Shown one piece after another: positions 1-52,146 of a stretch of 64,000 bases of DNA (its first letter is position 1; each line of letters starts with the position of its first letter). Location of the stretch: the NCBI GenBank assembly GCA_030278955.1, contig JAOANR010000009.1:33519504-33583503 (forward strand). Direction: 5' to 3'. The translations under genes were made by a program, and so were the position numbers. The notes under the pieces were generated by a model. The model did no database searches. It was not told the DNA's origin and was given only the letters and a program-made list of their open reading frames with translations. Source of the DNA: Hygrophila difformis. Its lineage: Eukaryota; Streptophyta; Magnoliopsida; Lamiales; Acanthaceae.

Positions 1-309
1 GGATGATAATGGCCAAAAAATGACCATTATTTTCAATCCATTTTCCGTGTTTTAAACGGGCATTTGATCGCATTCCGGTCTTACATTAAGTAAGAAAGCA
101 GTCGAATTGGACTAATTTATGCATAATTGTAAAAATAATAAGCTGGTGTGAAAAAGACATAAATATGTAATTTTATTACATATTTATGTTAGAAAAATCC
201 AAAAACATGAGAAAAAGAAAAGGAAACAAAAAGATGGGAAAAAGATAGAAAAGCCCACAAAAAGAATATTTTCGGCCCATCTGGCCCAATCCAGCAGGCC
301 CAGGAAGAC

Positions 310-545
310 CTTTGTCGCGGAAGCCCCTTGGCGCGATGCAGTGTTCCGCGACAAAGGCATGTTCCGCGACCAAGTGGCCCAAATGAAGAGGAGACCAGCC
401 AAGCCCCTTGGCGCGATGACCTTTGTCGCGATGGCATGCTCCGCGACAAAGGCATGTTCCGCGACCAAGATGCACAAATAGAGACACAAGACCCAGTCGA
501 GAAGCCTTGCCACATGCAGTGTGTTCCGCGACCAACTTGATGCTC
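310..545. repeat. Palindrome array A1 in Athila-1 LTR
   Basis: A cluster of TTTGTCGCGG/CCGCGACAAA half-sites in both orientations, mixed with GGCGCGATG variants. It repeats in the 3' LTR at 15615-15850. It lies upstream of the TATA box at 626, which suggests tandem binding sites in U3. Short ORFs through this block are by-products of the repeats. Confidence 0.8.
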
Positions 546-582
546 CGAGACAAAGCTGTGATGTGTGTGATGTCTTAAGACA

Positions 583-640
583 CAATGGGCTAGAATCAAG
601 GCCCATGGGCTTAGGGTTACACTTCTATAAATATGAGGTG
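583..640 (+). promoter_or_regulatory. Putative Athila-1 LTR core promoter
   Basis: An AGGCCCATGGGC palindrome (599-610) and TTAGGGTTA (611-619, telo-box-like) precede TATAAATAT at 626-634. GGCCCA and telo-box motifs followed by TATA are common plant promoter elements. The same arrangement recurs in the 3' LTR, with TATA at 15932-15940. Transcription would start near 660, leaving a very long R-U5 leader. Confidence 0.6.
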
Positions 641-1274
641 TCTCCCATGAGCTAAGGTTGGCACAGTGAAGAGATTAAAATTCTTGTAGAGCTCTTGCAG
701 GCAAGCTTAGGAGTTCCTCCTTAGGTAGAGTAGTTTAGGTTTGTTTTCATGTATTATTTAATTTTTGCTCTTAGTTTAGCTTAGTTTAGTGTTTTTACTG
801 TTCACAGTTGCTTAGATAGCCATTCTTACACTATGTTTTGGTTTCTAAACTCTTGTTTTAGGGTTTGTAATATCCAAATCATGGGTATTAACAATACCTC
901 TTCAATAATATGGGAAAACATTCATCATTTGTGTCCCAAATCATGAAATGGGTCTCACACCCCATGGATTTATGCTTTCTTTTTCATTTTGGGGTCATTT
1001 GACCCCCTTTTTGTTATTTTTATGTTTATTGTTGGCATATTATGGATAATGTTGTGTGGATGTGTGATCAAACCCTAGATTAGGACTCCTGCTTTATTTT
1101 AATATTCTGCCCATCCTTGTTATTTTTGTTTAAGCATGTTCTTCTTTATTTTGAATGTTTCTTGCTTATTTTTAGCTTAGAATAGCTTTTTGATCTGAAA
1201 TAGGGTGAGATCACGCTGTTTGCATGCCACTGTTCATTTCTGCTTTTTCTGACTTTTGTCCTGAACCACCTTGG

Positions 1275-1822
1275 GTGCCAACCGCCTTCTGGCGCGGAAC
1301 CACGTTCCGCGACAAAATGGTTGTTACGCGACCAAGGTGTTTCAAGACACTCGTCTCCATAATTTAAAACCCTTTGTCGCGGAATACCTTGTCGCGGAGC
1401 CACGTTCCGCGACAAAACTGTCCATGCATAGCGACAAAGGAGCCAAACTCTTGCATTTTGTCTTCATGGCTTTTTGTCGCGGAATCATCTTGTCGCGGAG
1501 CCACGTTCCGCGACAAAATCCCATTCTGAGACAGAAAAATTATGCCATGTTCCTTGATCTTTGAACACCTTGTCGCGGAACACCTTGTCGCGGAACCACG
1601 TTCCGCGACAAAATTTCCATGCATAGCGACAAGGGTTCAAATGCTTTAGGAATTTTCTGAAAACACTTTGTCGCGATGTCACCCTTGTCGCGGAACCACG
1701 TTCCGCGATAAAATCTTGCATAGCGACAAAGAGGCGTTATGCTGCCAAAAATTCTAAAAACTTGTCGGGATGTCCATGTCGCGGATCTCGGTCCGCGACA
1801 AAATTTATGATATCGCGACAAG
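1275..1822. repeat. Palindrome array A2 in Athila-1 LTR
   Basis: Roughly 100 bp tandem units. Each holds a near-perfect inverted repeat; the clearest, at 1585-1611, is TTGTCGCGGAAC, a CAC loop, then GTTCCGCGACAA (12 bp perfect stem). Units end in a GCATAGCGACAA(A/G)G half-site. The last unit, near 1780-1803, keeps the stem around a changed loop. A TATA-like CTCTATTTAATC sits at 1833-1844, right after the last half-site. The copy in the 3' LTR is 16574-17122. Confidence 0.85.
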
Positions 1823-4344
1823 GGTTCCTCTCCCTCTATTTAATCTCAAACAAACTTCATTCTCTCCCTATTTTATATTGCAACACTCACATCATAGCCC
1901 CACGGGTTAGGATGTAACATTCTGGAATTGCAATATAGGGTGTTATGCTGCCCAAATTTTGATTCTCCATTTGCATCACTTAACTGATTGAACCCTTGAC
2001 TCATTAATGATTAAAGATTGAGATTAGCAATAATCAAACTTCAATAATCATCATGACTAAAGGACCTTTGTTCAATTGCCATTAAAACATTCTTGTATAA
2101 ACAAAATCTCGATGGCTTAAACAGATAATCTGGACTGTAATTAATTATGGTAGGAAGGATTATTTAAGACCATCAATTGTGGACCCAATCCACAACCTTG
2201 CATGAGAAACCAATGTCTCTCATACAAGGGATCTTCTTTTGTTTCTTATTTATTTTGTCTTTGTGTGTTGTGTGGAACCATTAGTAAAGAATACATCAGA
2301 CTAATGTTGGCGGGTACTCCCTCATGGATAACTAGCTCGTATTCTGGGTATTAGTTACTAATTGTTATTTTGCATGGTCTGGATGGCTGTCAGTGGAAGC
2401 CTTGGCGGTTCGCCCATCCGGGGTTATAATAGCTGCTCGGCTGACTCCCATCCAGATACAGTTTTATTTTTATTATCTTAATTTCCAAACCTGAATCCCA
2501 ATCCGTACTGGGAGTCAGTTGGCATCAGTCAATGCCAACTGATGATCATCATAGAAGGGAAGCATGTAGGTTTTTATCCGAATTCACAGACAGTGGAGGC
2601 CCAACTGGTGTTGACACTACCATTATAGGGTCTAAGCTGTCTAAATTCGCTCCATCCGAGTGATTGGGAAATTGGACAGTAGATGTTTACAGTCCACCTG
2701 ATTATTCTGCCATTACTTTGGTCCCTTGACCACTTCATTCTGTGTTTCACCTTCTGTCTAGACCCGCATCTATATTTTGGGTCAATTAATTTTACACTTC
2801 CATATATCTTTATGCATGATAATATTATATACTATTGTGTACTATTGTGGTCTGTACTTATTTTGGGATCCTTCCCTTGGACAATAGAAGTCTAGATCTT
2901 AAACAGATATTGCTTTATAAATTTCCAACAAAAACCTCTTTATAAAATCCGGATCTGAGTAAGGGATAAATTCTTCAGTTATGACTAATTCATATTCTGT
3001 CAAGGGTTGTATTTTGGGAAATTAAGAAGCAGATTCAGCGATTAGGTCTCGCCTAGACTGAAAGGGTCTGTGTTTTAACTGAGAGTCTAGTACCTGACAG
3101 GGAATGATTTTCAAATCCATTATTTTCCAAAATTGCTGGTTGATGGAAATGTAAGATTAAGTGCTACACCGAGATGGGGTCCACTTGGATTCAAATACAG
3201 TGTAGTAAATAATCTTAGAGGAACATCATCCAGGCCTTGGTTATTTTCCAAGATAGGGTTGAGTTTTCTTTCAACTGCTATCCTCTTCTGCTAAAGCCTA
3301 CTTTTGAGTCCTGAGTGAGTGCATCCGGAACGAACTAATTTATTAGTTCGTTTCATTAGTCTGTATCTCATAATCACCCGGAAGGGAGTGAACACACTAG
3401 TGGTTCACTGAGAGCCGGGAATTCTTGATCCATACTCCTTCATTCTGATGGGGAGCTGTCTTTTACTACCAGGGTCAGATTTTCAAAACCTTCGAGTGAT
3501 AGGTTTTAAATGCTTTCTTTACCGCTTTCTTTTAACCGCTTTCATTAGAGGTCACTCGGTTGTATTGAGAGTTGTGTAACTGCTACTAGGATTGACAGTT
3601 AAGGGATAGTTTAGGGCTGAATTCAAATCTTTGGGTGTGACATGGGAGAATGATAGTGGTACTTGGCATTTCAATAAATGATGTGTCGGGTGTTGCTTTT
3701 CCACCACAGATGAAGTAACACACCCAGGCCAGGGCAGTCACGAATCTGTGGTATCTTAGAATTTGCGGTCTTAAGAACATGTAAACTCATATTGCAAGTA
3801 CCTGTCTGTTAAAGGGAAAGCCTTATTGAGAGCATGAGAATTAGCTATCTGATAGAATTATCCCAAACAAAGATCTGCGTATAAAAATGGAAGTTTAATA
3901 TTGCTGTGTCTCACTCTTGTCCAATTTTCATTCTTTTCTTCCTGTCCTTTCTGTCTACATTGTGACTCAACTTCACGGTAGGCACAATGCACATTTTCCC
4001 TGCTTTCGTAGATAATGTTTACTGCATTCCTAGAATAATTCTTATCCGCTTTCTAGAATAGATTTATTTTCTTTGTAGATTAATTTAACTGCTTTCAAGA
4101 TCTAGTTTAAATTCCCGTCAGTAGATATTAATCATCTTTCAAACCTATTGAGCAATACGAATGGAAAATCTAGTAAAACGACGTGGGACCTGCTTCTATC
4201 GCACATCCTCCAGTGAACGATCCGGTCTTACTATAAATTACTGCAATTTTTGACACCGTGCGCTTTCGGGGGCACAGTTTCTTAACTACGAGCAATAAAA
4301 ACATGACTACGTATAAATATATCCCTAATCACAACACCGCCATC

Positions 4345-4490
4345 ATAAATTGGTTTCATTAAATAAAACCTAAACCAGGATCATGATTTTTTGGAAAATA
4401 CTCATGTAGTGGGAATCTGTCAAAAAGTTTCATGGCAGGAACTCTTATGGCAAGAATTGATGAGAAGTATCATGGCATATCTGCCGGGGA
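4345..4490 (+). repeat. Degenerate duplicate of the Athila-1 U5/primer-site junction
   Basis: TGTCAAAAAGTTTCATGGC at 4419-4437 repeats the true LTR end and primer-site start (TGTCAAAAGTTTCATGGC near 4728-4745). The upstream flanks are also alike (AAATAAAACCTAAACC against AATAAATCTAACC). At 4474-4491 a second block, TGGCATATCTGCCGGGGA, matches the primer site except for five central bases. It looks like an old ~310 bp tandem duplication at the end of U5. Confidence 0.55.
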
Positions 4491-4740: not shown

Positions 4741-4758
4741 TGGCGCCGTTGCCGGGGA
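4741..4758 (+). other. Primer binding site, tRNA-Asp
   Basis: TGGCGCCGTTGCCGGGGA is the reverse complement of the 3' end of plant tRNA-Asp(GUC) with its CCA tail. This is the primer used by Athila-type elements, and the site adjoins the LTR end. The 143 bases from here to the ATG at 4902 are untranslated leader. Confidence 0.9.
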
Positions 4759-4901
4759 GGATGCAGCGCCATTTTATTTAGAGAATTACATTCCTCATTG
4801 CTCCTAGAGTAGCCTATACATATAATTATAAATATTCACCTTCAGAACCACTTCTAACCTGGGGATTGTACAGGTACTGTCATTATTGAAGCCGTTGTTC
4901 T

Positions 4902-7900
4902 ATGCAAAGGAGGAAGCAGACGCCAGCCGAGATCCCGTTTAATTCAGAGATAGAAAAGACAGCTCGACGTCTTAGGGCGGAGACTAAACGAAGAAGGGAA
5001 CGGGAACGACAGGCATTACTTTCGCCAAGCACCAGCAGCGATATTTCCGAAATGGCAAACCCTGACATCCCACCAATCATTCAACCCAATCCCCCACTTC
5101 ACAACATTGAGGAAGACCCCGAAGATGCTGATCATGATGATTTGGATGATCCCCCTCCCCAGATCATACAAGGAGGTGGGAATCCACCAAACATGGAGCA
5201 GCAGCACTTCGAGGCACCCCCTCCCAACCCGAACCAAAACCCACCAAACAACCAAAACCAACCAAATCAGCAAAATTTCCCAAACCAACAGAATCAGCAA
5301 TACCATAACCCCCATCAGAATCCCCCGAATCCGAATGATTTCAATGATCCGAGGAACTATTTCATGCCTCAGAACTACTACCCACAGCAGTACCAAGGCG
5401 GGCCTGAGAACAATCATCAAGAAGCAGCTGCTGCTGATTACATGCAGCCGATTTTAGAGCCATATCTGAACATTCCTGGACAAGCTCCATTCCTGGCCAG
5501 GAATTTCGAACTGAAACCGGCCCTAATCAATCTAGTCCAGAGCAACCAGTTTGCCGGAGCAAGTCATGAAGATCCCCATGATCACCTGCAAACCTTCCTA
5601 GAATTGTGTGACACGATCAAGAATCGTGATGTACCCGCAAACACTATTCGACTAAGGCTATTCCCCTTCTCTCTGACAAGCGGAGCACGAACATGGTACA
5701 AGTCACTGCCCGTAAATCAGAAGTCTACATGGGAAGATGTGATCAGAAACTTCCTAGCAGAATACTTCCCGGAGTCCAAGGTGGATGAATGCCGCTCCAA
5801 AATTGCGGAATTCAAGATGAAACCAGACGAGTCCTTGTATGATGCAAAGGAAAGATTCTTCAACCTACTCAGAAAGTGTCCTCAACATGGCTTCCATGAC
5901 TGGGAGAGACTGAGAAAGTTCTACAGTGGTCTGACCCCAGCATGGAAATCCATGCTTGATGCTGCTGGTGGTCAACATTTGCTCTACATACCGATGGACC
6001 AAGCCTGGGCAAAGATTGAAGCCATGAGTGTAAACCGTTCTGTTCTAACTGATGATGGTAATCTCACTCCCCCTCGTAGTTTATGTGCTGTAGGTACAGT
6101 AGAGAAGTCAGACATTGAAAAACTTCAAGAGCAAGTGGCAGCGTTGTCTGTAAATCAAGGAGTTGGAAGTTCTGCGCAGGGACAGCAAACTGATGTGATC
6201 TGTGGACTGTGTCAAGGCGCTCATGCAACTGACACATGCGAGCAAGTCACAGCTGAGAGCTGTAACTATGCAGGAGCCTTTCCAAATAGACACCCGAATT
6301 TGTCTTATTCAAACAACAACGCCTTAAACTCACATCTCTTGAACAAGCCACAGCAACAACGGTTCAACCCTCAGCAGAACCAAGGATTCAATCAGAACAG
6401 GGGCCAACATTTTCAGAATCCAGGTTTCCAACCTCAGATCCAGCAGAGGCCGCCTCAGAATTTCCAGAACTTTCAGCCCAATCAGAGTTTCCAGCCTCAG
6501 TTTGTCCCAAACCAAGGCCAGTGGAATCAGAATCAGCATCAAAATCAGAATCAGAATCAAAAGCCTCCTTCAAGGCTTGAGAATCTGATGACTGATTTCA
6601 TCACTAGTCAGAAAGAGATCAACAATCAACTGCAGGCCTCCATCAGAAATGTGGAGACCCAAGTTACACAGATGGCTAACGAGATGCAGAAAAGGGACAA
6701 AGGAACATTGCCTAGTACTGCGGAAAAGAACCCGCAATGCAAGGCAATAACCTTGAAATCTGGAAGAGTACTAGCTGGACCAAAGGGAGCAGATACTGGA
6801 GCGGAATTTGAAGAAGATGATATTGTTGACAATGCTGGTAAGGAAGCTGATAATGGGAATAAAGCGGAAAAAGAGACAGCCGAATTGCAGACTGAAGCTG
6901 CGCCCAAAAAGGCTGAAACAGATAAGGGTACAGGTGAAGGTACAACTTCCTTCCCTTCACCACCAAAAATTGCTAATAACAAGTACATGCCCAGGATTCC
7001 TTATCCTGCGCGGCTTAAAAATAAAGAACATGATCTTAAATTCAAGAAATTTCTGCAACGATTAAAGTCTGTAGAGATAACCATTCCTCTCACAGAAATG
7101 ATTTCCGAAATGCCCATCTATGCTAAGTTCTTGAAAGAATTGATTTCAGGAAAAAGGCAGGTTGAGCAGGAAGAGGTAATTATTCTCAACAGCACATGCA
7201 GTGCCATCGTTCAGAGGAGAATGCCTGAAAAGAAAGAGGACCCCGGATGTTGCACACTTCCAGTACAATTCGGAAAGGCCAAAGTGAGTATGGGGCTTTG
7301 TGATTTAGGATCAAGCATCAATGTGATGCCACTAGCTATGGCTGTTCGCCTTAAGCTTGGAGAAATTCAACCGGTCAAGATGAGACTGCAACTTGCAGAC
7401 AGATCGATCACTCAGCCCGTAGGAATCCTTAAGGATGTTGTAGTCAAAACCGGGCAGGTTCTTTTCCCGGTCGACTTCATCATCCTCGACATTGAAGAGG
7501 ATTCTGAAATGCCGCTTATCCTTGGACGCCCATTTCTAGGCACTGGTGGTGCACTGATTGACGCTAAATCCGGAAAAGTCACCTTAAGGGTCGATGGCGA
7601 GGAGATCATCTTTGATATGGAGAAATTGCAGAAATTTCCGAATGACAGTTCTTGTTTCTCATTTGAAAATGTAATAGTTAGGGAAGAGCCAGACTCTGAA
7701 CTTGATTGTGAAATGATGCTGGATGAACTATCAAAGCAGGTACTGAAGCCTGCTGGCATGGAGCACAAAGGATGCAAAGCCGTTCACTTTCCCGATCCCG
7801 AAACAGGGGATTTGGAGGAATTTGACGGCATCGACTTCCATGATGATGCCAACCAAGAGGAGGAAGAGGATCCTGTACTGATGCAGGATCCCGAAGGTAA

Positions 7901-10862
7901 ATCTGTTCTCCCACTACCCAATTCTCGCAAACTACTCCCTTCCGTTGAATGTCCACCAGAGCTTGAACTTAAAACACTACCCGATCATCTCAAGTACGCG
8001 TTTCTCGCAGAACATAAAAAGTTACCCGTGATTGTTTCGGCTAAGCTCTCCCAAGAGCAAGAAAACGCTCTGGTGGACGTTCTTAAGAAACATGTACATG
8101 CAATAGGTTGGACCATTTCTGATATAAAAGGAATAAGCCCTTCTATTTGCATGCACAGGATTCTAATGGAAGAAGAGTTTAAACCCTCCCGTCAACCTCA
8201 GAGGCGATTGAACCCCCTTATGCAGGAAGTGGTGAGGAAAGAAGTTATCAAGCTCTTAGATGCTGGTATAATCTATCCTATCTCTGATAGCAAATGGGTT
8301 AGCCCGGTGCAGGTCGTACCCAAACGAGGAGGGATGTGCATAACCAAGAATGAGCAAGGAGAAGAGGTTGCAACCAGGCCAGTGACCGGATGGAGAGTTT
8401 GTATCGACTACCGGAAGCTGAACGAGGCCACACGCAAGGACCATTTTCCATTGCCATTCATTGATCAGATGCTTGAGAGGTTGGCAGGGAGAGAGTTTTA
8501 TTGCTTTTTGGATGGTTATTCTGGTTATAATCAGATTGTTATCTCTAGTGAAGACCATGAGAAAACCACTTTTACTTGCCCGTACGGCACTTTTGCCTAT
8601 CGACGGATGCCTTTTGGTTTGTGCAATGCACCTGCTACTTTTCAAAGATGCATGATGTCTATTTTCTCTGAATTTATCGAAAAATGCATTGAGGTCTTTA
8701 TGGATGACTTCTCTGTATATGGAGATACGTTCGAAGATTGTTTGACCAATCTTGCTAAGATTTTAAAGAGGTGTGAGGACACTAACTTGGTTTTAAATTG
8801 GGAAAAGTGCCATTTTATGGTCACTGAGGGCATAGTGTTAGGTCATCGCATTTCTCGTGCAGGCATTGAAGTTGATCCAGCCAAAGTTTCCATCATTTCC
8901 AATCTCCCTCTTCCTAACTCGATCAAATCAGTTAGGAGCTTCTTAGGGCATGCCGGTTTTTACCGGCGATTCATTAAGGATTTCTCTAAAATTGCCAAGC
9001 CGCTCACTAATCTGCTTTGTAAAGAAAATCCTTTCTTAATAAATGAAGCGTGTGTCCAAGCCTTTGACACGCTCAAGAAGATGTTGGTTTCTGCACCGAT
9101 AGTGCAACCACCCGATTGGTCACTGCCTTTCGAGGTAATGTGCGATGCTAGTGGTCTCGCCGTAGGCGCAGTTCTTGGACAACATAAGGATGGGAGACAC
9201 TGCGTAATTCATTACGCGAGTCACGCCCTGAATGAAGCCCAAGTTAACTACACCACAACGGAGAAAGAGATGTATGCTGTAGTCTTCGCGTTTGACAAGT
9301 TCAGACAGTACCTGATAGGTACAAAGACCATAGTATACACTGATCATACAACATTGAGATACTTGTTTAGCAAACAAGATGCAAAACCTCGATTAATCAG
9401 GTGGGTACTTCTGTTGCAAGAATTCGACATCATAATAAAAGATAGGCGAGGTCGAGATAATGGTGCTGCTGACCACTTATCTCGATTAGATAATGATAAA
9501 AAGGAAAAAGCCGTCAATGAAGATTTCCCGGACGAACAGTTGTTCGCGTTGCATCTGCATAATCAAGCTTGTCCATGGTTTTCCGACATCGCTAACTTCT
9601 TGGCATGCGGAGTAACCCCACAGTTTTCGAACTATCATCAGAGGAATAAGTTCAAACGAGATGTATTAAGTTACTTCTGGGAAGAACCTTATCTCTTCAA
9701 ACACTGCCCTGATTTAATAATCAGGCGATGTGTGACCGAGCATGAAGCTTATCAAATTGTCAGAAAATGCCATGAATCAGAATATGGAGGTCACCATGGT
9801 CCCGCTCGAACGGCCCACAAGGTCCTCGAATGTGGATTTTATTGGCCTCACATCTATGAGGATTGCAGGACATTTGTTAAGGGCTGTGACAGATGCCAAA
9901 GATTAGGAAACATCTCCAAGAGGGATGAGATGCCTCAAAAGGGGATTCTCACACTTGAGATCTTTGATGTATGGGGCATTGACTTCATGGGACCGTTTCC
10001 ACCATCTGGTGGAAACTACTATATCTTGGTAGCTGTCGATTACGTATCCAAATGGGTCGAGGCTGTCGCATTACCGACCAATGATGGTAGCCAAGTCATC
10101 AAGTTCCTCAAGAACAACATTTTCAGTCGATTTGGCGTACCTAGGGTGGTGATATCTGATGGAGGAACACACTCTATTAATAAAGGTTTTGAAACTTTAA
10201 TGAGTAAAAATGGGATCCTCCATAAGATAGGCACGCCTTACCATCCTCAGACTAGTGGTCAAGTCGAAGTATCCAATCGCGAAATCAAACACATACTCGA
10301 AGCCACTATCGGGATAACCCAAAAGGATTGGGCACGTAAGCTCAATGATGCTCTATGGGCATACCGCACAGCATATAAGACTCCCATCGGGATGTCTCCA
10401 TATAGGCTGGTCTTCGGAAAAGCCTGTCATTTACCCGTAGAGCTAGAGCATAAAGCTTACTGGGCCGTTAAAACGCTTAACTTCGATCCGAAAGTTGCTC
10501 AGAGCAAACGTAAGTTGGACCTCAATGAAATTGAGGAAATACGAGCGCAAGCTTATGAAAGCTCTCGAATTTACAAGGAGCGGACCCAGAAGTTGCACGA
10601 TCGCCGGATCAAACCTAAGTATTTTTATGTTGGTCAACATGTGTTATTGTTCAATACTAGGTTGAAGCTGTTCCCCGGAAAGCTCAAATCTAGATGGGAA
10701 GGACCACATGAAGTACTAGAGGTGTTCAAAAATGGAGCTGTCAGGATCCGAACTGATAGGGGCGATATAGTGGTGAATGGACAACGATTAAAAGAGTACC
10801 TTGGACAGTTCGATCCGGAGAAAGAAAGCCAAGCAGTGGCAGACCCGGCCTACACTCAATAA
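4902..10862 (+). CDS. gag-pol: Athila-type gag-pol polyprotein, intact (1986 aa)
   Basis: One uninterrupted frame carries all replication functions. The retrotransposon gag core is about residues 200-380. A zinc knuckle [13 protein letters not shown] at ~434-446 has the CX2CX3HX4C spacing. A Gln/Asn-rich stretch spans ~455-570. The aspartic protease motif CDLGSS has its Asp at ~801. RT carries FMDD at 1266-1269, and RNase H has CDAS with Asp ~1415. The integrase has an HHCC finger at ~1625-1668 and catalytic Asp 1694, Asp 1753 and Glu 1789 (DD35E spacing). The start is the first ATG with a basic N-terminus, as in other Athila Gag proteins. There is no stop or frameshift, so the element could be functional apart from its damaged 3' LTR. 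The flank of the second catalytic Asp reads DGGTHSINK where Athila-2 has DGGSHFVNR. Confidence 0.95.
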
Positions 10863-10969
10863 GAAACAACATTTAAAAATACAAAAATTTTAGTTTATAT
10901 ATATATATATATATAGTATATATTTACAGTACTTATTTCATGACGAGCAAGTACCCAAAGATCAATTAA
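10863..10969 (+). other. Short untranslated spacer after pol with AT microsatellite
   Basis: An AT dinucleotide run at about 10896-10922 follows the pol stop codon. Nothing else is recognisable before the hairpin module. Confidence 0.5.
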
Positions 10970-11007
10970 ACATTTAGAGTACTAAGACTCTAAATGTGAG
11001 GATGTTG
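10970..11007 (+). other. Hairpin-GTGAGGATG module 1 (end of pol)
   Basis: An 11 bp perfect stem (ACATTTAGAGT, loop ACTAAG, ACTCTAAATGT) runs straight into GAGGATGTTG. The same motif, with a different hairpin in front, recurs at 12863-12900 and before the 3' LTR at 15275-15313. An acceptor-like CTATCTTGCAG follows at 11041-11051. Confidence 0.6.
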
Positions 11008-11357
11008 ATATTTGGAGAAAATCTAATGCATTTCATTCATCTATCTTGCAGAAGTTCGGAACCCCCAAAAAGAGGAGCAGATAAGAGTAACATGGAAAAC
11101 CAGGTTCTTGGTTGGATTAGTTCCATAAGTCTAAGAAAACGTTTTCGGGAATTGAAGAAATTCAATACCCGAAACAAAATTCACAGATAAATGGAACTAA
11201 CCCAACCTAATTTTATGCAAGTGGATTGTTTAATTTTCAGCCCAGCATTTTGAATTTACTTGGACTGAATTTATTCAGCCCAAATCAAATAAAATGGACT
11301 CAGGCCCACATCACACTCGGGCCCAGTCCAAGAAAATTTGAAAATTCAAAAAAATTC
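11008..11357 (+). other. Non-coding stretch after module 1
   Basis: No gene seen. Short open frames here have no recognisable domains. The sequence lies between the possible splice acceptor at 11051 and the palindrome array. Confidence 0.4.
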
Positions 11358-11671
11358 TTTGTCGCGGAAGGTCCTTTGTCGCGATGTCATACATCGCGAC
11401 CAGGCCCTGTTCCGCGACAAACTCCCTTTTCCTTCTTAACCCTTCTCCGGTGATTGTCGCGATGCACCTTGTCGCGGAGCATGACTCCGCGACCAAGCCC
11501 TGCTCCGCGACATGATCTGCGTTGACCTTGTCTCCATACTGAGCTTTGTCGCGGTAGCCTTGTCGCGGAGCATGACTCAGCGACCAACCCTCAACTCCGC
11601 GACCTCTCTGATGTCGCTATGCCTTGTCGCGGAACCTGGTTCCGCGACAAAGTCTCGGATTCCGCGACAAA
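11358..11671. repeat. Palindrome array A3, internal copy upstream of the F-box unit
   Basis: The same TTTGTCGCGG/CCGCGACAAA half-sites as in the LTR arrays, here outside the LTR and immediately upstream of a TATA box and a short first exon. Spacing and intervening sequence differ from the LTR arrays, so this is a related rather than copied array. Confidence 0.8.
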
Positions 11672-11835
11672 AGTTCAAGTATTTATACCCCCCCACCCCC
11701 TCCAGTTTCTTTTCACTTTCTCTTGTCATTTCAACTTCCTCCAACTTCTTCATCTTCTTTTCCCCCATTTTTCTCTCATCCGAACGAACACCACGTGTTC
11801 TTCGCACTCTTGCACTCCTTTTCCAAGGGGAAACT
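11672..11835 (+). promoter_or_regulatory. Putative promoter and leader of the F-box unit
   Basis: TATTTATACC at 11680-11689 sits ~10 bases after the last palindrome half-site. A CT-rich leader follows with no ATG until 11836, where the context AAACTATGG has A at -3 and G at +4. This looks like an internal RNA polymerase II promoter. Confidence 0.5.
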
Positions 11836-13628
11836 ATGGACCGATTTCATGGACTCCTCCCAAACCTTGGACCCGTGCCTAGACCCGAGCCAAGGAGGAG
11901 AGGGTAAACCCTGTTTTCGCCATGTTCATAGCACCCATTCGGACCCTTTATTTTGTTTTTTATTTTGTTGTGTTCTTGGTGTGGTGTGGTTAATGTGTGC
12001 ATTTAACTTTAGATTTTTGGAAGTTTTCAAAGTGCTCTCGGGTATGAGCACCATTTTGAAACGCCTGAAACCCCATCTTGAAACTGGTAATGGATAAGAT
12101 TTTTGAAGTTTTAAAACTGGAAAGAACAAACTGATGAACATTTGGGTATTGTTTTGAATATCTTGATGTTGTTGGTTTGATTGATCCTGATGTGATGTGC
12201 ACAGTGTTGAGTTGGTGTAATAAAAGAGGTAAGATCTCTTTGGGCACATTTGTCCCCATGTTAGAAATCTCATGGGAATAAATGTTTGTTTGTTTATGGA
12301 AACATAGTACAAACACCCAATAGGAAGCTTCCACTTTTAATAAAAGCAACTTTTAGAAAAAGACAAAAAGAGTCATTTTTGTTTAATGTTTGACTTGAGT
12401 CTTTTGTTCCCAATGGAACACTAGTGTGAGTAAGATAGCAGTACTTTTGTCACCCAACTGCCATCCTTTTCAAAAATCCAAAATGGGACCACTCACATCC
12501 CACCTTTGTTAAATAAAACAAGTCAACCATTTTTAAAATTAAAAACAGTGTTTGCAAATTTTTGGATGCTTTAACTGTCCAAACAGTCCAAGCTATCCAG
12601 AAACAGCAGATCCGTTCCGCCACGTCTCCATTGCACATTCCAATATTCGAGCATTCCATTTCCATCTATCCATCTCATTCCACTTCCAACAAGTGTCTCG
12701 AACTTGTTTAATAAAACTGAAAACTTTTGGGCCCTATGGCCCATTAAAAAGATTTTAGGCCCAATGGCCAATTTTATTTTATTTTGGGCTCTTTAGCCCA
12801 TTTAAAACCAAATATTATTTACATGTGCTTTAAATTAAAATTCAAGTCAGAAATTTAATAATCTCACATCTAGAGCAAAGCTCTAAATGTGAGGATGTTG
12901 GTTTCTGAACTTGAATAATTTCTGAAAATTATATAAAAATTGGATTCATCGCTTCTTATCTTTTCAGGGGTAATCCTCCCATTCCAGACCCTGCTCCAGA
13001 GGGAACTAAGTTGTTGGACTTACCACTAGAACTCCTTGGTGAAATCCTCTCCCGGATAGGAGAGGATGAAATCAGGGAGGTGTTTGCCGCGCAACGTGTA
13101 TGCAAGAAGCTCAGGGATGCTGGAAACCTTACTATCGTGTACAAGCGATGCGAGGTTAACACCTCCACTGTGAAGAGATGGCAAGTAAGGATCCGTCGGC
13201 AGAAAGAGAGATTCCTGCGAATATGCACAGCGGCAGGAAACTTCAATCTTCAGCTCATCCCAGCACTCAGGGCATTTGCAGAGGGGAATGAGGAGCGCGC
13301 TTGTGAACTGCTACGCCCGGGACTTGAGGACAACCATAAGACGTCAATCTTCACCCGCGGATTGATGCTTATGAGTAAGACGGATGAAAGCCAAGTTGAG
13401 CAGGGGATCAGAATGATCGACAGGATGGTGACAGATCGATCAGTTTTTCGGTACACTTCCACCAACGTCCTCGCTTGGATAACAGACAACCCAGACAACC
13501 CACAACTGTGGGCAGGCCAAGGAGTCAGAGTCTACTGCCCAAGATGGCATGCACCTCTGAGAAACCGCGATTGGTGCCTGCGTTGTGAGCTTTCCAGCTG
13601 TGTCCTCTGGCTCCGATACATGCCCTGA
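11836..13628 (+). CDS. Captured F-box protein, predicted two exons (about 242 aa)
   Basis: Predicted exons are 11836-11903 and 12968-13628. The donor reads G|GTAAAC at 11904; the acceptor is CTTTTCAG ending at 12967, after a pyrimidine-rich stretch. Exon 1 leaves two bases that join the first base of exon 2 exactly in frame, which supports the 1064 bp intron. The product has a short Pro/Arg-rich N-terminus, then an F-box (LPLELLGEILSRI, residues ~42-54), then a region resembling the small plant F-box proteins of the At2g35280 type with a Sel1-like segment (FLRICTAAGNF, then GLMLMSKTDE). The C-terminus is rich in Cys and Trp (WCLRCELSSC). F-box proteins bind SKP1 and choose targets for SCF ubiquitin ligases. 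No pol or env similarity is visible. A shorter unspliced reading from exon 2 alone would lack an ATG near its start. Family assignment is fairly sure; splicing is inference. Confidence 0.65.
12863..12900 (+). other. Hairpin-GTGAGGATG module 2 (inside predicted intron)
   Basis: Arms CTCACATCTAGAGC and GCTCTAAATGTGAG around an AAA loop give a 14 bp stem with one mismatch. The 3' arm merges into GAGGATGTTG, 67 bases before the predicted acceptor. The rest of the intron (11904-12862) holds no other recognisable gene; short frames in it look spurious. Confidence 0.6.
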
Positions 13629-15274
13629 AGAAGAAAGGAAGAATCCTAGTTCCACTTTACCTGGCTTTATTTCATTTCCATTCTAGTAGTAGTAATCTGC
13701 AAGGGATCCCCCCTTTTGTGTGTGCAGGTTTGTATTAACTGCACGAGAATCCCTTGCCACGGATGTATTTACTGCTGTCCCTAAATTGGAACTCAGCTTT
13801 TGAGACCACTGAACAATTCTTTACTGCTTTCCTTTGAAAAGATGTCTGCACAGTCCGAGATGAATAAGTGACTGTCAGGCCAAAAATATGCTGTTGACAT
13901 ACTCAGCGAGTCAGCAGTGCCTCTTTACTGCTTTCAATTAAATAACCAGCAAAAATATGCATAAACTTGCTCTAAATTCACAGGTTGAATTTAGGCTTAT
14001 GATTAAATTTTCAGACTTTCAAATTGGGATAATATAATTGAAGACATGCATGAAATGAATTCCTGAGGTTTTGAGCTACAAAAATTTAATGATGCGATCA
14101 GCTTATTGGGTAATAAATCTGCATGTTAGAGATTTCGATTGAATAAATTGTTAGAATTAAGCTTGGATTAAATTTGAGAATATTGTATGACATGAATTAA
14201 CCCAACCTTGTGAGATTTGAGCCATGAGTCACTTTTACTCATTCATTTTCTTTGATGTGTGAATCATTTTGATTAAAGGAAACTAGAACTTGCAATTGGG
14301 ACCGATCCAAGACCATGCCATATTCCCGAAATCGAGCATATGATCGAGGCACCTAGAAAACCCAAATTTTTGGCCTTCGTTTGAAATCCAAACCCAAAAA
14401 TATTTCCCTTTAGGATTAACCAATTTGAGCCTATAAGCCTAATTTTTCTTTGAAGCCCTTCATATTATTCCTAGCCTTACAAAAAGACCAAGAAATTCAA
14501 ACCCAAGTGTGCAAGGATGAATTCTATCAAAGGCATTAAAATTATGATCATCAAAAAAAAAAAAAAAGTATTAATCGGTATTCCATGAACCGATTTAAAA
14601 AAAAAAAAAAAAAAGAGAGAAGTTGAATTTCATTCAACATCAATAAATTGCGAATGACAAGCAATTAGACAATAGTCTAATGTCATGCAAAAGAAAACCA
14701 AAAAGAAAGAAAAACATATTGACGATCATAAACTTTTAAATAAAAATATGCCATGTTATGATAATATTAATTCTTGCCACTTCTTAACCCAATAAATTCC
14801 TTTTCCTACCCAATGTTACAACCGTACGCCCCGTTATAACCCTTAAATAAGACCTCGTGATCTCGATTTGAAGAAATGAGCCGGTGGCGAGTTGGTCTGA
14901 TTGCAAGCTTATGGGATAATTTATTTAAATGTGATTTTGAGCGTTCATGATTAAACCCAATTGAGAGTGAGTGAATTTTTCCGATTCTCTTATATGTGAG
15001 GCTTTGTCTTATTACACATGTTCATGTCATCCTCTAATTCTCATCCCTAATCTTTGCATTTTTCAAACATGATATTCATGAAAGGTTGATAATAATGTTT
15101 GATTTGTAGGCCCGATGTAGTGAGCAAGTATCATTTCATTAAACACTGCAACCAAGGGAATTCAATACTTGTAATTTTTGATTGTCTTATCCCAATCCAA
15201 AAAGGATGTGATTTATGAAGCCACGAAAATGAATTGAATATGTAGAGTCCGTGTTCTTACGAACATTGACTCTG
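13629..15274 (+). other. Non-coding 3' region of Athila-1
   Basis: AT-rich, with no credible gene on either strand. Two A-runs (14553-14568 and 14599-14616) flank a short segment containing ATTAATCGGTATTCC. It ends at the hairpin before the 3' LTR. Confidence 0.5.
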
Positions 15275-15313
15275 ACTGCTCGGGGACGATCAGTATTAAA
15301 TGTGAGGATGTTG
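15275..15313 (+). other. Hairpin-GTGAGGATG module 3 / polypurine-tract region before 3' LTR
   Basis: ACTGCTCG, loop GGGA, CGATCAGT (8 bp, one mismatch) is followed by ATTAAATGTGAGGATGTTG, with the LTR starting at TGATAATGG (15312). GTGAGGATG occupies the place of the plus-strand primer, although it is not a pure purine run. Confidence 0.6.
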
Positions 15314-18300
15314 ATAATGGCAAAAAATGACCATTATTTTCAATCCATTTCCGTGTCTTAAACGGGCATTTGATCGCATTCCGGTCTTACATTAAGTAAG
15401 AAAGCAGTCGAATTGGACTAATTTATGCATAATTGTAAAAATAATAAGCTGGTGTGAAAAAGACATAAATATGTAATTTTATTACATATTTATGTTAGAA
15501 AAATCCAAAAACATGAGAAAAAGAAAAGGAAACAAAAAGATGGGAAAAAGATAGAAAAGCCCACAAAAAGAATATTTTCGGCCCATCTGGCCCAATCTAG
15601 CAGGCCCAGGAAGACCTTTGTCGCGGAAGCCCCTTGGCGCGATGCAGTGTTCCGCGACAAAGGCATGTTCCGCGACCAAGTGGCCCAAATGAAGAGGAGA
15701 CCAGCCAAGCCCCTTGGCGCGATGACCTTTGTCGCGATGGCATGCTCCGCGACAAAGGCATGTTCCGCGACCAAGATGCACAAATAGAGACACAAGACCC
15801 AGTCGAGAAGCCTTGCCACATGCAGTGTGTTCCGCGACCAACTTGATGCTCCGAGACAAAGCTGTGATGTGTGTGATGTCTTAAGACACAATGGGCTAGA
15901 ATCAAGGCCCATGGGCTTAGGGTTACACTTCTATAAATATGAGGTGTCTCCCATGAGCTAAGGTTGGCACAGTGAAGAGATTAAAATTCTTGTAGAGCTT
16001 TTGCAGGCAAGCTTAGGAGTTCCTCCTTAGGTAGAGTAGTTTAGGTTTGTTTTCATGTATTATTTAATTTTTGCTCTTAGTTTAGCTTAGTTTAGTGTTT
16101 TTACTGTTCACAGTTGCTTAGATAGCCATTCTTACACTATGTTTTGGTTTCTAAACTCTTGTTTTAGGGTTTGTAATATCCAAATCATGGGTATTAACAA
16201 TACCTCTTCAATAATATGGGAAAACATTCATCATTTGTGTCCCAAATCATGAAATGGGTCTCACACCCCATGGATTTATGCTTTCTTTTTCATTTTGGGG
16301 TCATTTGACCCCCATTTTGTTATTTTATTGTTGGCATATTATGGATAATGTTGTGTGGATGTGTGATCAAACCCTAGATTAGGACTCCTGCTTTATTTTA
16401 ATATTCTGCCCATCCTTGTTATTTTTGTTTAAGCATGTTCTTCTTTATTTTGAATGTTTCTTGCTTATTTTTAGCTTAGAATAGCTTTTTGATCTGAAAT
16501 AGGGTGAGATCACGCTGTTTGCATGCCACTGTTCATTTCTGCTTTTTCTGACTTTTGTCCTGAACCACCTTGGGCGCCAACCGCCTTCTGGCGCGGAACC
16601 ACGTTCCGCGACAAAATGGCTGTTACGCGACCAAGGTGTTTCAAGACACTCGTCTCCATAATTTAAAACCCTTTGTCGCGGAATACCTTGTCGCGGAGCC
16701 ACGTTCCGCGACAAAACTGTCCATGCATAGCGACAAAGGAGCCAAACTCTTGCATTTTGTCTTCATGGCTTTTTGTCGCGGAATCATCTTGTCGCGGAGC
16801 CACGTTCCGCGACAAAATCCCATTCTGAGACAGAAAAATTATGCCATGTTCCTTGATCTTTGAACACCTTGTCGCGGAACACCTTGTCGCGGAACCACGT
16901 TCCGCGACAAAATTTCCATGCATAGCGACAAGGGTTCAAATGCTTTAGGAATTTTCTGAAAACACTTTGTCGCGATGTCACCCTTGTCGCGGAACCACGT
17001 TCCGCGATAAAATCTTGCATAGCGACAAAGAGGCGTTATGCTGCCAAAAATTCTAAAAACTTGTCGGGATGTCCATGTCGCGGATCTCGGTCCGCGACAA
17101 AATTTATGATATCGCGACAAGGGTTCCTCTCCCTCTATTTAATCTCAAACAAACTTCATTCTCTCCCTATTTTATATTGCAACACTCACATCATAGCCCC
17201 ACGGGTTAGGATGTAACATTCTGGAATTGCAATATAGGGTGTTATGCTGCCCAAATTTTGATTCTCCATTTGCATCACTTAACTGATTGAACCCTTGACT
17301 CATTAATGATTAAAGATTGAGATTAGCAATAATCAAACTTCAATAATCATCATGACTAAAGGACCTTTGTTCAATTGCCATTAAAACATTCTTGTATAAA
17401 CAAAATCTCGATGGCTTAAACAGATAATCTGGACTGTAATTAATTATGGTAGGAAGGATTATTTAAGACCATCAATTGTGGACCCAATCCACAACCTTGT
17501 ATGAGAAACCAATGTCTCTCATACAAGGGATCTTCTTTTGTTTCTTATTTATTTTGTCTTTGTGTGTTGTGTGGAACCATTAGTAAAGAATACATCAGAC
17601 TAATGTTGGCGGGTACTCCCTCATGGATAACTAGCTCGTATTCTGGGTATTAGTTACTAATTGTTATTTTGCATGGTCTGGATGGCTGTCAGTGGAAGCC
17701 TTGGCGGTTCGCCCATCCGGGGTTATAATAGCTGCTCGGCTGACTCCCATCCAGATACAGTTTTATTTTTATTATCTTAATTTCCAAACCTGAATCCCAA
17801 TCCGTACTGGGAGTCAGTTGGCATCAGTCAATGCCAACTGATGATCATTATAGAAGGGAAGCATGTAGGTTTTTATCCGAATTCACAGACAGTGGAGGCC
17901 CAACTGGTGTTGACACCACCATTATAGGGTCTAAGCTGTCTAAATTCGCTCCATCCGAGTGATTGGGAAATTGGACAGTAGATGTTTACAGTCCACCTGA
18001 TTATTCTGCCATTACTTTGGTCCCTTGACCACTTCATTCTGTGTTTCACCTTCTGTCTAGACCCGCATCTATATTTTGGGTCAATTAATTTTACACTTCC
18101 ATATATCTTTATGCATGATAATATTATATACTATTGTGTACTATTGTGGTCTGTACTTATTTTGGGATCCTTCCCTTGGACAATAGAAGTCTAGATCTTA
18201 AACAGATATTGCTTTATAAATTTCCAACAAAAACCTCTTTATAAAATCCGGATCTGAGTAAGGGATAAATTCTTCAGTTATGACTAATTCATATTCTGTC

Positions 18301-19049
18301 AAGGGTTGTATTTTGGGAAATTAAGAAGCAGATTCAGCGATTAGGTCTCGCCTAGACTGAAAGGGTCTGTGTTTTAACTGAGAGTCTAGTACCTGACAGG
18401 GAATGATTTTCAAATCCATTATTTTCCAAAATTGCTGGTTGATGGAAATGTAAGATTAAGTGCTACACCGAGATGGGGTCCACTTGGATTCAAATACAGT
18501 GTAGTAAATAATCTTAGAGGAACATCATCCAGGCCTTGGTTATTTTCCAAGATAGGGTTGAGTTTTCTTTCAACTGCTATCCTCTTCTGCTAAAGCCTAC
18601 TTTTGAGTCCTGAGTGAGTGCATCCGGAACGAACTAATTTATTAGTTCGTTTCATTAGTCTGTATCTCATAATCACCCGGAAGGGAGTGAACACACTAGT
18701 GGTTCACTGAGAGCCGGGAATTCTTGATCCATACTCCTTCATTCTGATGGGGAGCTGTCTTTTACTACCAGGGTCAGATTTTCAAAACCTTCGAGTGATA
18801 GGTTTTAAATGCTTTCTTTACCGCTTTCTTTTAACCGCTTTCATTAGAGGTCACTCGGTTGTATTGAGAGTTGTGTAACTGCTACTAGGATTGACAGTTA
18901 AGGGATAGTTTAGGGCTGAATTCAAATCTTTGGGTGTGACATGGGAGAATGATAGTGGTACTTGGCATTTCAATAAATAATGTGTCGGGTGTTGCTTTTC
19001 CACCACAGATGAAGTAACACACCCAGGCCAGGGCAGTCACGAATCTGTG
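15312..19049 (+). repeat. Athila-1 3' LTR, truncated at its right end
   Basis: Matches 4-3750 of the window with only about a dozen differences, including a 7 bp indel near 16320. It contains the same palindrome arrays (15615-15850 and 16574-17122) and TATA box. The match stops at GAATCTGTG (19041-19049); the final ~990 bp present in the 5' copy are absent and AT-rich unrelated DNA follows. The loss must post-date the insertion. Confidence 0.9.
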
Positions 19050-31493: not shown

Positions 31494-32338
31494 TGTTGTT
31501 ATCACTAACTAGCTCCTATGCAGATGAAGTAGTTCCATGGTTGTTGAAACTACGCTAGAACGACCTGAGCAGTTACAGACAGACATGTGCGACAGTTATT
31601 TGATATGTGCGCGTGTCTAACCGACCCAAGAGGATCTAATTCGTGCTTCTGAGTTTATATACCTGTGTTTAGACCCTCTGTAATTAGTTTTGAGTTTTAT
31701 TGAGTAGTAATTTTCAATTTTGAGAGATTTTGTGAGTCGGTTATTCTCTAGCTTTTCATAGATTGATTCTTGGAGAGATTAGAAAATCCCTTGATTAGAT
31801 TTCTGCACTTTTAGAAGATCTTTCATTTCATCATCAAGGTCTGCGTTGAATTTGCTTCGATAAGTTCATCTTGTTGAAGAAACACGTTTCTACATTTTTT
31901 GTGTTTCAAAGTCGTCTTGGCGAAGAGGCTTTGAAGGAATCTGAAGGAGAGGATTCAGGATATTTGCTACACCTGATTTCCAAGACTTGAAGATCAAAAC
32001 AATTGGAGGTTACTTGTTTGGCCTGACTGTCCGAGGATCGGTGTTGTGAGGGAGTCCAGACAACGATCAATCTGCAGACTGTAAGTCGTGTGAGATAGAG
32101 TCAGTTCCTTGATTGTTTGATTGTTTTAGTCTTAGTTTTCTTGAGTGATAGTATTAGAGCCTGGATTGGAATCCCCCAGACGTAGATCCGTTGGATCGAA
32201 CTGGGTTACCAAATTTGTGTGTCATTACTTTCCGCTGCATTACACTTTCTGCACACGCACACTATCGTTCACAAGTCGTTTTAACTACCGCTCGACTACG
32301 CGCTTAACACAAGATTTCAATATTATCTGGGACCAACA
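31494..32338 (+). repeat. Copia-2 5' LTR (845 bp)
   Basis: Starts TGTTGTTATCAC and ends GGGACCAACA, two bases before the primer site. It carries GGAATCCCCCAGACGTAG and GAACTGGGTTACCAAAT at 32169-32217. It differs from the 3' copy at about 18 sites over the 778 bp that can be compared. Confidence 0.9.
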
Positions 32339-32340
32339 AT

Positions 32341-32352
32341 TGGTATCAGAGC
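32341..32352 (+). other. Copia-2 primer binding site (initiator tRNA-Met)
   Basis: TGGTATCAGAGC, complementary to the 3' end of initiator tRNA-Met, two bases after the LTR. Confidence 0.9.
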
Positions 32353-32398
32353 AGCAGACTCTGACGTATTAGAGGCGATCTGAAGAAATCTTGACAAG

Positions 32399-34305
32399 AT
32401 GAGTAGAGAAGGCGCATCACTTTCAAGACAACCATTGTTCGATGGCACTAACTACAGATATTGGAGAACTCGGATGAAGATTCATCTAATGGCCCTTGGA
32501 GATGAAGTATGGGACACAGTCGAGACAGCCTGGCAACCCCCAACTCGACCACAGACTGCTCCAGCAGGTTCTACAGAACCACCTGGTAGTCGGCCAGCAA
32601 CCAAGGCTGAATATACTCAAGGTGAAAAAGATGTCAAGAAAGGAAACTATACTGCCCTAAATGCGATTTTCAGTGCTATGGACGAGACGCAGTTCCAACT
32701 AGTCACCAACCACACACTAGCTCATGATGCATGGAAAACTCTAGAGGTGATGTATGAAGGTTCTGAGGATGTTCGAGCTACCAAGTTACAGCGAGTTCGA
32801 CCATGTTCGAGAATCTGAAGATGAATAAGGACGAATCGATTTCAACCTATTACGGGAGGTTCAAAGACATTGTAAATCAAGCCTATTCCTTGGGATTGAT
32901 TTATGATAATTAAAAACTAGTTCGAAAGATGTTGAGGACTCTCACCAAGAAGTATGCCCCGAAGGTTGCTACATTGGAAGAATTGGATAAGTTGAACACT
33001 ATTACCTTGGATGGTTTAGTTGGAATTCTTCAAACCTATGAAATGAATCACTTGGAAGAAGAACTACCAAGAACCATTGCTCTAAATATTGAAGAAGATT
33101 CTGGAGATAGTTCTGAAGATGAGGTAGTCCACTTAATGAAGAAATTGAGCAGACTGCTTCAAGAAAGAACGAACAAAAGAAAGACTCAAGATCACAGTTC
33201 TGATGATGTTCAGACGACTGACAGACCACCCCACAGAGATTCTAAAAGAAAAGAGAGCAGTAAAAGTGATCGATCAGATAGAAAAAGCAAAAATCATGAG
33301 AAGCCTGACAAATTCACTTCTGTGATATGCCATGAATGTGGAGGAACGGGACACTTTAAATCTGAATGTGCCACGGCCAAAAGGAATGAAATGAAGGCAA
33401 AGAAAGCATTGCAAGCAACCCTCAATGATCGAGATGACGATGAAACTCCTAAGGATCAGATCAGTGACACAGAAGAAGTCGTTGCATTTACGTTGAGAAA
33501 TGCAAGCCTCACTCCATTGGAAGGTATAATCAAATCAATATGTTTTTCACCTAAAAAAGATTCTTCTGATTCAGGTGACAGTGATGATGAGTATGATCAA
33601 CTACTTGCTGACTACAATGAGCTTAAAGAAGAATTCGAAGCTGCTATTCGGGAAAATAAGAAGTTGTTGGGACAACTCGCGGACGTCGGAATTTCCTATG
33701 ATGAAGAAGTCGAGAAGAATGAAGTAATACAAAATGAACTAGATTCCTTGAAGAGGCAGAATGATAAGCTTAAAGCCCAAAATTCTGATTTGCAAAAGGA
33801 GTTAGATGATTTGAAACTCAAGAACGATGATTTACAAAAGGTAAACAAAGGTAAAAGTGCTCTTGATGAAATTCTAACTTCTGGAAAACGTTTTGGAGAT
33901 CAAACAGGTATAGGTTATAAGAAGAAATCAACTTCAAGCATTACCATGTTCGTAAGTGGAGGATACTTCACTTCACAATACAAGGAGACTGGCAGTGACG
34001 ATGTTACAACACCGTCCAGACGACGGAAGGACGGCAGTTATTGTCAACTACCTGGACATTCTGCAAACGCATGTATCAGAATAGTACGAGACTTAATGAA
34101 TGGTCGAGCTGTTGTTTGGCCAACCAAGGAACTTCGAAAAAGGATCAGAGTACAAAGAGTATGGATTCCAAAGAAGAAAAGTCTGCTACCAACAGATGTT
34201 GAGACCACAGGAGAACAACAATTCATATCAACTAAAGAGAATTTCAGACTTATGATTTCAGAGTCAGAAAGGGATGGTATTGGACCAACCCAACACAAAG
34301 TTTGA
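32399..34305 (+). pseudogene. gag: Copia-2 gag, broken by one frameshift and one stop
   Basis: The N-terminus (RQPLFDGTNYRYWRTRMKIH) is the copia gag start. A one-base loss near 32801 shifts the frame and a TAA at 32911-32913 interrupts it; the frame then runs open to 34305. Further features are a Lys/Ser-rich linker, a zinc knuckle CHECGGTGHFKSEC (CX2CX4HX4C) near 33328, a Leu/Lys/Glu coiled coil (~33590-33850), and a second knuckle that has lost its first Cys (YCQLPGHSANAC, near 34041). It ends shortly after VWIPKK, just where protease would begin in Copia-3. Gag forms the particle shell. Confidence 0.85.
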
Positions 34306-34965
34306 ACCGCTTGAGCTTGAGATAAAGATATGTAGCTGTGATGAAGCTGTTACTGAAGTGTCATAATTACTCACAGACTACAGTATCAATGGGTAAAAAG
34401 ATTTTCTTTTTTATTGATATATTTTTGAGCTAATGAATTTTTGATTGCTTGTTTTTAAAGAGACTTTAGGTTATTTCTAATGAACGACACCTATGAGTTT
34501 GATGATTCTTCCATCATGGGGGAGATTTGGTGTTGATGGTATGGTTCTGACTAATAGTAACTGGTAGTCATGACAACTGGGTAACGATATTTCTAAACTT
34601 TTGGATGATTATTTTGGAATGGTTATTGTTAGACAATATTTGTGGATGATTGTTTTTTTTTATGACTACTCTAATTGGATGATTTCTGAACTGAATTACT
34701 TTTGAACTTGCACTATTATTGGTCTGTAATAGTTGTTAGGTAATTCTGATGACTGCTAAACTACTTAGTTCTTATTTGCTCTGATTTTTATATCTGTACT
34801 GTGATTATGCTCTGAATGTTGATGGATGTTGTTTCTGATTCATTTTGATTATTCATTGACATCCTATTTGTGAATCACATGTATTTTGCTCTGATATGAT
34901 CTCTTATACTCTTTGGACTTAGATAGTTTCAACACCTTTTGGTGATGGAATTATCATCTCCACAA
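34306..34965 (+). other. Non-coding remnant between gag and 3' LTR of Copia-2
   Basis: No pol domain is recognisable in any frame. It contains TTCCATCATGGGGGAGATT at about 34510-34528, a second G-rich tract like the true polypurine tract, possibly an internal duplicate of the LTR border. Confidence 0.5.
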
Positions 34966-40733: not shown

Positions 40734-40739
40734 GGTGGC

Positions 40740-52143: not shown

Positions 52144-52146
52144 CTC

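Follow-up and report, generated by a model that had tools for sequence, protein, structure and literature searches.

We analysed 64,000 nucleotides of the plant Hygrophila difformis (contig C15, positions 33519504–33583503 of a 915 Mb assembly; "the window"), at the start of which lies an Athila-type retrotransposon, here called element 1. Between pol and the 3' long terminal repeat (LTR) of element 1 we found a two-exon gene for a protein with an F-box and a TPR_27 domain. This gene is widespread in the element family, its frame is mostly open, it is under purifying selection like that on the reverse transcriptase (RT)-integrase region, and its signals are kept. We consider it probable that Athila-type elements in this genome use it as a dedicated third gene, conserved and exchanged among elements, through the promoter, splicing, ubiquitin-ligase and target steps proposed below. 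These results suggest that the elements manipulate host-cell protein turnover. An initial annotation had described a real two-exon F-box unit behind an intact gag-pol, and we recovered the unit at the same coordinates; the LTRs of at least 3.7 kb, a conserved hairpin and a parallel unit at 45205–41901 are features beyond that annotation.

The F-box unit of element 1 and its copies

The gag-pol frame of element 1 is open over 1990 codons (4890–10862, plus strand, as are all features of element 1 given here) and encodes a single polyprotein in the order gag, protease, RT, ribonuclease H (RNaseH), integrase. Pfam models for gag, RT, RNaseH and integrase scored above cut-off in that order, and protease scored below it. 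We take the element to be of the Athila lineage on the basis of its motifs and of the match of its pol to that of the Transposase_32-bearing element described below. Behind pol, an array of GTCGCGG palindromes (11358–11676), the motif of the element's LTR arrays and a presumed promoter array, is followed by a TATA-like box, TATTTATA (11680–11687), named from its sequence and of putative function. In the leader (11681–11838) the sole ATG, at 11836, starts exon 1 (11836–11903), whose 68 nt comprise 22 codons plus 2 nt. The exon 1 donor (AGG/GTAAAC), a predicted intron of 1064 nt (11904–12967) and the acceptor (CTTTTCAG/G) join exon 1 in frame to exon 2 (12968–13628). Exon 2 encodes an F-box (residues 15–51; 22.6 bits, Pfam cut-off 20.5), a TPR_27 domain (residues 74–158; 31.7 bits, cut-off 27) and a Cys-bearing tail, and ends with TGA at 13626–13628. 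The domain order, F-box and then TPR_27, is that of the At2g35280 type, with both domains above their cut-offs. The first in-frame ATG of exon 2 lies at 13365, behind the F-box, and translation of that domain thus requires a start codon, and an exon, further upstream. Splice sites were scored with an approximate plant matrix, in which the exon 2 acceptor ranked 1 of 64. The top-scoring donor was GAG/GTAAGA at 12229; we rejected it as a donor for the F-box frame, since a TAA lies 5 nt before it in the exon 2 phase. Exon 2 matched neither viral contigs nor prokaryote genomes, as expected for plant DNA, and the element's pol likewise had no match in viral contigs.

The F-box unit occupies the slot in which a second Athila of the window, on the minus strand and with LTR copies 99.3% identical, has Transposase_32, which we take to be the usual Athila third gene. 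Transposase_32 matches the 3' open reading frame (ORF) of an active sunflower Athila (PMC11728184). The pol regions of the two elements match at 66% of DNA positions over 2.5 kb. Compared along its length, the second unit (45205–41901) runs in the order of a CG-rich palindrome array (GGCGC motif, 44870–45205, minus strand), an ATG-free leader, a donor (TAG/GTAAGA at 44541, rank 1 of 65 in the same matrix), an intron, a TGTGAGGATG hairpin at 43780 about 57 nt before the acceptor, the acceptor (43723, rank 6 of 47) and a Transposase_32 exon (41901–43723, minus strand, ATG 43712). The layout of array, leader, intron and hairpin is similar in the two units. Introns, leaders and post-pol stretches did not align significantly between the two elements, which share the layout and the TGTGAGGATG hairpin only. 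Transposase_32 similarity was absent from element 1 when the window's Transposase_32 proteins were searched by tblastn against 10863–15311.

Element 1 holds 49 of the window's 50 GTCGCGG sites, and in a scan of the window the GGCGC motif clustered in the second element only. Local alignment of an internal array with the LTR array of its own element gave z scores of 17 and 37; arrays aligned between the two elements gave 1.8. Because the internal arrays carry the motif of their own LTR arrays, shared regulation of the LTR and the third gene is suggested. We considered and rejected a complete additional LTR U3 region as the putative internal promoter: the polypurine tract (PPT) copy and the array match the LTR, and the intervening 350 nt are unlike it (z = –0.9). 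The F-box gene is borne by the element, as the initial annotation held. The unit does not resemble a captured gene that brought a foreign promoter, since the array motif is that of the element's own LTR and the unit is laid out like the Transposase_32, or env-like, unit.

Element 1 contains a 16-mer, AAATGTGAGGATGTTG, at exactly three sites: downstream of pol, within the intron, and at the PPT/3' LTR junction (15298–15313, identified by sequence). At the first two it follows a hairpin (10970–11007, z = –5.1; 12862–12900, z = –5.9, the latter 67 nt before the acceptor), and its copy at the PPT forms none (z = –1.1). The 35-mer of the intron hairpin (12866–12900) is identical in 23 of 24 aligned copies, and the hairpin had 2774 matches in the genome at up to 3 mismatches, compared with 0 for a reversed-pattern control. 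From its sequence, the AAATGTGAGGATGTTG hairpin might serve as an additional PPT for plus-strand priming, or have a role in splicing or packaging.

A protein search of the genome gave 6345 first-look candidates, from which 150 were chosen by protein score and scored. The F-box exon was without a stop in 143 of these protein-picked copies. The gene is carried by other copies of the element, so that one refuting outcome set out with the initial annotation, its absence from all of them, did not occur. Twenty long copies were fetched with 7 kb each from the best-scoring protein hits, a choice that biases toward conservation; 18 of them, on many contigs, had RT-integrase, array, leader, both exons and intron in that order, with RT-integrase open in 12 of the 18. 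Host F-box genes form large families, which is the point in favour of reading the unit as a host F-box gene hit by element insertions or as an assembly artefact; given the common order in 18 of 20 copies, we attach practically no weight to that reading.

The aligned set comprised 24 distinct copies, 22 of which hold the whole unit; L019 and L026, without its 5' part, were excluded from the splice, nonsynonymous/synonymous and pol counts. L001, L005, L007 and L008, which duplicate other loci or the window, were removed before counting, and L031 is the same element as L010. Across the 22 whole copies the ATG, the GT and the length of exon 1 are kept in all, exon 1 is free of indels in all, the AG is kept in 21, and the intron spans 1051–1104 nt. 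This conservation indicates that the splice layout is not a product of chance, and we infer that exon 1 is spliced to exon 2.

We also sampled copies through the intron hairpin, that is, without regard to exon 2 but with an exact 30-mer required. This hairpin-picked set consists of the 28 hits at the head of the list, every one of them on contig C1, and 20 of the next 29; seven of the nine left out were already protein-picked and two were missed, which biases the second batch against intact copies. Exon 2 was counted as open when it had 214–226 codons and a Cys among its last 30 residues, and was so in 33 of 48 copies (21 of 28 in the first batch, 12 of 20 in the second; L067 qualifies and yet has a shifted tail). 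Among the 34 alleles made up of these open copies and the window, the Pfam TPR_27 model was found in all and the F-box model in 29 (E ≤ 0.01).

Relative to the window, changes in the 22 protein-picked copies are nonsynonymous in 30 cases, synonymous in 74 and create a stop in 1; the fractions expected from the intron spectrum are 0.67, 0.28 and 0.05, in the same order. The 30:74 count is biased toward conservation because the copies were picked by protein. We calculated ratios of nonsynonymous to synonymous divergence (dN/dS) from the 34 alleles (561 pairs, 529 of them with dS above 0.1). Over the 529 pairs the median dN/dS of exon 2 was 0.17 and the maximum 0.37. For deep pairs, dN/dS was 0.07 in the F-box, 0.12 in TPR_27, 0.22 in the tail and 0.29 in the N-terminal stretch. 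The RT-integrase region of 18 copies compared with the window had a median of 0.18, so that constraint on the F-box gene is about as strict as on the enzymes of replication. Given the 33 open frames and this ratio, degradation of the frame in all copies, another refuting outcome set out with the initial annotation, did not occur either.

These values bear on whether the gene is a passenger, a host F-box messenger RNA captured once and amplified along with the element without use to it. That LTR elements of plants can transduce genes is well established (PMC7264820, PMC13317346), and the genome does contain an ordinary-looking TPR_27 host gene with introns (L091). A passenger would nevertheless have to account for a dN/dS of 0.17 across allele lineages that reach a dS of 3.2, for the 30:74 ratio in the protein-picked copies, for the lack of any tblastn match between the window protein and L091, and for F-box genes in two Athila-like families, in one case as five in tandem. 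We regard it as very unlikely.

The second family emerged from a genome search for TPR_27, in which most of the 150 copies scored, out of 5039 candidates, had a 260-codon frame. One copy on contig C3 (16811474–16821974; L093, L092 and L094) has five different open F-box ORFs within 5.7 kb, each of 247–270 codons from stop to stop. They start behind an integrase of Athila-like type, whose C-terminal end shows 56% identity across 120 residues and a single stop in that stretch, and are followed 3' by hairpins like those of the window and a long ORF of 692 codons in L094, for which we found no Pfam match. The five proteins are 25–54% identical to one another and 32–35% identical to the window protein; F3 scores under the Pfam cut-offs, and F4 and F5 have dN/dS of 0.12–0.29 among three copies. 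The fetched part of L089 has three of the tandem ORFs, one cut by the edge and one ended early by a stop, and that of L090 has two.

Divergence and exchange of exon 2

Copies diverge strongly in an island at 12968–13675 (plus strand), which ends about 45 nt past the stop codon. For the L032 allele class the island takes in all of exon 2, with 26% difference from the exon 2 start onward. For the L029 class it begins near 13131, behind the F-box: relative to the window class, L029 alleles differ by 7% in the F-box half (12968–13130; 5–6% within classes), by 14% in 13131–13500 and by 32% in 13501–13628. Upstream, at 12812–12967, class means are 3–5% between classes and 3–4% within them, and from 13676 all classes are again at the background of 7%. 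Between allele classes exon 2 differs by a dS of 0.5–1.5; at those loci the difference in the intron and the 3' flank is 0.035–0.064. An intron patch near 12000 reaches 18% divergence. Hypermutation or decay as the source of the exon 2 divergence was rejected on the dN/dS of about 0.17.

We compared pol ends in 12 copies. In 8 of them pol was 97–99% identical to the window (657–953 nt aligned); exon 2 in the same 8 was 71–93% identical, with a dS of 0.27–1.18. Two copies are mosaic: in L041 the first 100 residues match the L052 class and the rest the window class, and L038 switches class near residue 140. Because near-identical pol goes with divergent exon 2, and because mosaics occur, we conclude that old F-box alleles have been exchanged among near-identical elements, with crossovers within the gene. 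Athila env genes have been swapped between distant families in Arabidopsis, where recombination is frequent (PMC2410132). Recombination of Athila is thus itself already known, and the novelty lies in an F-box gene of host type that has many alleles.

The same precedent of env swapping (PMC2410132) supports an account in which ordinary template switching mixed long-separated families and the island arose without any selection in favour of diverse F-box genes. Directly upstream lies the conserved hairpin, which would permit such switching; some exon 2 groups do sit in pol-diverged elements (L044 and L056 at 93%, L049 at 86%); and the window and L029 classes have the F-box half in common and diverge only after it, a pattern expected of random crossovers. 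Two observations fit this account less well. Four of nine exon 2 groups (defined at 90% identity; one is the mosaic pair) occur in elements with pol 97–99% identical, and with the intron and 3' flank differing by only 0.035–0.064 it leaves the question of why exon 2 alone is so diverse. We believe that template switching without selection is a serious possibility that falls short of being probable.

LTRs of element 1 and other elements of the window

The 5' LTR of element 1 matches its 3' copy over 4–3750 and 15312–19049 (plus strand); these 3.7 kb are 99.5% identical, and 10 of the 3738 aligned sites carry a substitution. The window begins 3 bp ahead of the 5' LTR, and the 3' copy ends at 19049. 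With so few substitutions element 1 can be called young, about 0.1 million years at the rate of 1.5e-8 that has been applied to Athila (PMC2410132). The LTR-LTR match stops at 3750, and a sequence match to a primer binding site (PBS), TGGCGCCGTTGCCGGGGA, begins at 4741 (4741–4758). The LTRs are thus at least 3.7 kb long, and the 5' LTR may extend to about 4740, directly before the PBS; the 3' copy ends 990 bp short of the 5' LTR end so defined. We presume TGGCGCCGTTGCCGGGGA to be a PBS of the Athila/Tat type. A degenerate PBS-like stretch, CATGGC...GCCGGGGA, lies at 4471–4490, about 270 bp upstream.

Within the LTRs a second GTCGCGG palindrome array (1280–1830 and 16579–17129), followed by a pyrimidine-rich stretch, lies about 650 bp downstream of TATAAATA at 626. 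Judged from its sequence, it is possibly a second promoter within this very long LTR.

The second Athila has two Transposase_32 genes on the minus strand (39276–40772 and 41901–43745), each with an upstream GGCGC array, and the second of these genes is broken by one in-frame stop. Between its protease and RT is nested an element at 48754–55076, with 1342-bp repeats that are 99.7% identical and a gag frame (50553–51620) as the sole long coding frame recognised. A further element, at 31494–35756, has 778-bp LTR-like repeats (97.7% identical) and a sole long frame, of 463 codons, in which a zinc-knuckle match falls slightly short of the Pfam cut-off; it is perhaps a gag-only, non-autonomous element.

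Proposed function and known systems

In the mechanism that we propose, the GTCGCGG array and TATA-like box would act as an internal promoter sharing LTR regulation, and exon 1 would be joined to exon 2 by splicing. The conserved F-box would recruit the SKP1-CUL1 ligase of the host, and the C-terminal part, which changes faster, would bind a target, for which a host-defence component is the likeliest candidate. New alleles would then gain an advantage and spread via recombination during reverse transcription. A polerovirus genome likewise encodes its own F-box protein, P0, which can target AGO1 and suppress silencing, and the role of its SKP1 binding is called unclear (PMC6593998). This viral precedent makes host defence the most attractive target. 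The initial annotation had suggested that the element may modify host silencing or protein turnover. A stronger form of the proposal, in which Athila encodes diversifying substrate receptors of ubiquitin ligases, with shuffled alleles and five in tandem in one family, that degrade host anti-transposon factors, is one that we offer tentatively and regard as doubtful.

The F-box protein could also act on element proteins, its own or a rival's Gag or integrase, instead of on host defence. Competition between lineages would also fit alleles that are deeply diverse and are exchanged inside a single genome, and families with different third genes do coexist here. An element target seems unlikely to us, though less so than a passenger gene.

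Several observations count against the use of the gene that we propose. No pair of sequences and no domain had a dN/dS above 1, and an arms race is unsupported at that level. In the remaining 4 of the 12 copies compared for exchange, pol was 93%, 93% or 86% identical or had nothing at that place. An open exon 2 was wanting in 15 of the 48 hairpin-picked copies, a sample confined to contig C1 and to the exact 30-mer, and the F-box model missed 5 of the 34 alleles at E 0.01. The exon 1 donor ranked only 4 of 75 in the approximate matrix, and a probe of the joined 11903/12968 sequence had 0 DNA matches in the genome at up to 3 mismatches, hence no intron-less, spliced retrocopy. A sequence search of the PDB with the F-box protein returned no solved relative, AlphaFold on exon 2 alone from a single sequence gave an unusable model (mean confidence score, pLDDT, 40), and binding to SKP1 is predicted from Pfam.

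Among known proteins, those of the At2g35280 type resemble the window protein in having an F-box followed by TPR_27 and in the Cys-bearing tail. They differ in that the F-box/TPR_27 gene here is retrotransposon-borne and, by tblastn, unmatched to the genome's own L091. Element 1 is like Athila, Calypso and BAGY-2 in its Athila-type gag-pol, in placing a third gene, in sense orientation, between pol and the 3' LTR and, presumably, in its PBS; it is unlike them in that their third gene is Transposase_32 or env-like. Athila4 and Calypso have an extra PPT copy in the third-gene region as well (PMC2829016). Sireviruses, which belong to another superfamily (Ty1-copia), have CG-rich palindromic arrays before the LTR TATA box, some also 5' of ENV, and multiple PPT copies; their PPTs are near the 3' LTR, mostly after ENV, and the available portion of the source names no F-box gene (PMC2829016). 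Since some Sireviruses share the arrangement of array and multiple PPTs, the unit layout as such is not new.

Host-type genes inside LTR elements are found in Bs1 and Rider, and an LTR-borne gene of the F-box family has been reported in Thlaspi arvense (PMC8764390). Transduced genes are reported in one or a few copies (PMC7264820), unlike the widespread, constrained and multi-allelic gene described here. An Athila or other LTR element with a family-wide F-box gene was not described in the titles and abstracts of the literature we searched, whose coverage excludes most subscription journals.

The function of the Athila third gene is an old question, and in these elements its slot holds a readable biochemical prediction, an adaptor of the SKP1-CUL1-F-box (SCF) ligase. 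Because such an adaptor is predicted, the family is very abundant and natural alleles are many, target searches and binding tests become possible. We infer that transposon genes may swell the number of F-box genes counted in plant genomes of this kind. If the proposal is true, retrotransposons subvert ubiquitination in the host, like some plant viruses, and do so with a gene family that is polymorphic and recombines, which would represent a new front in the conflict between plants and transposons.

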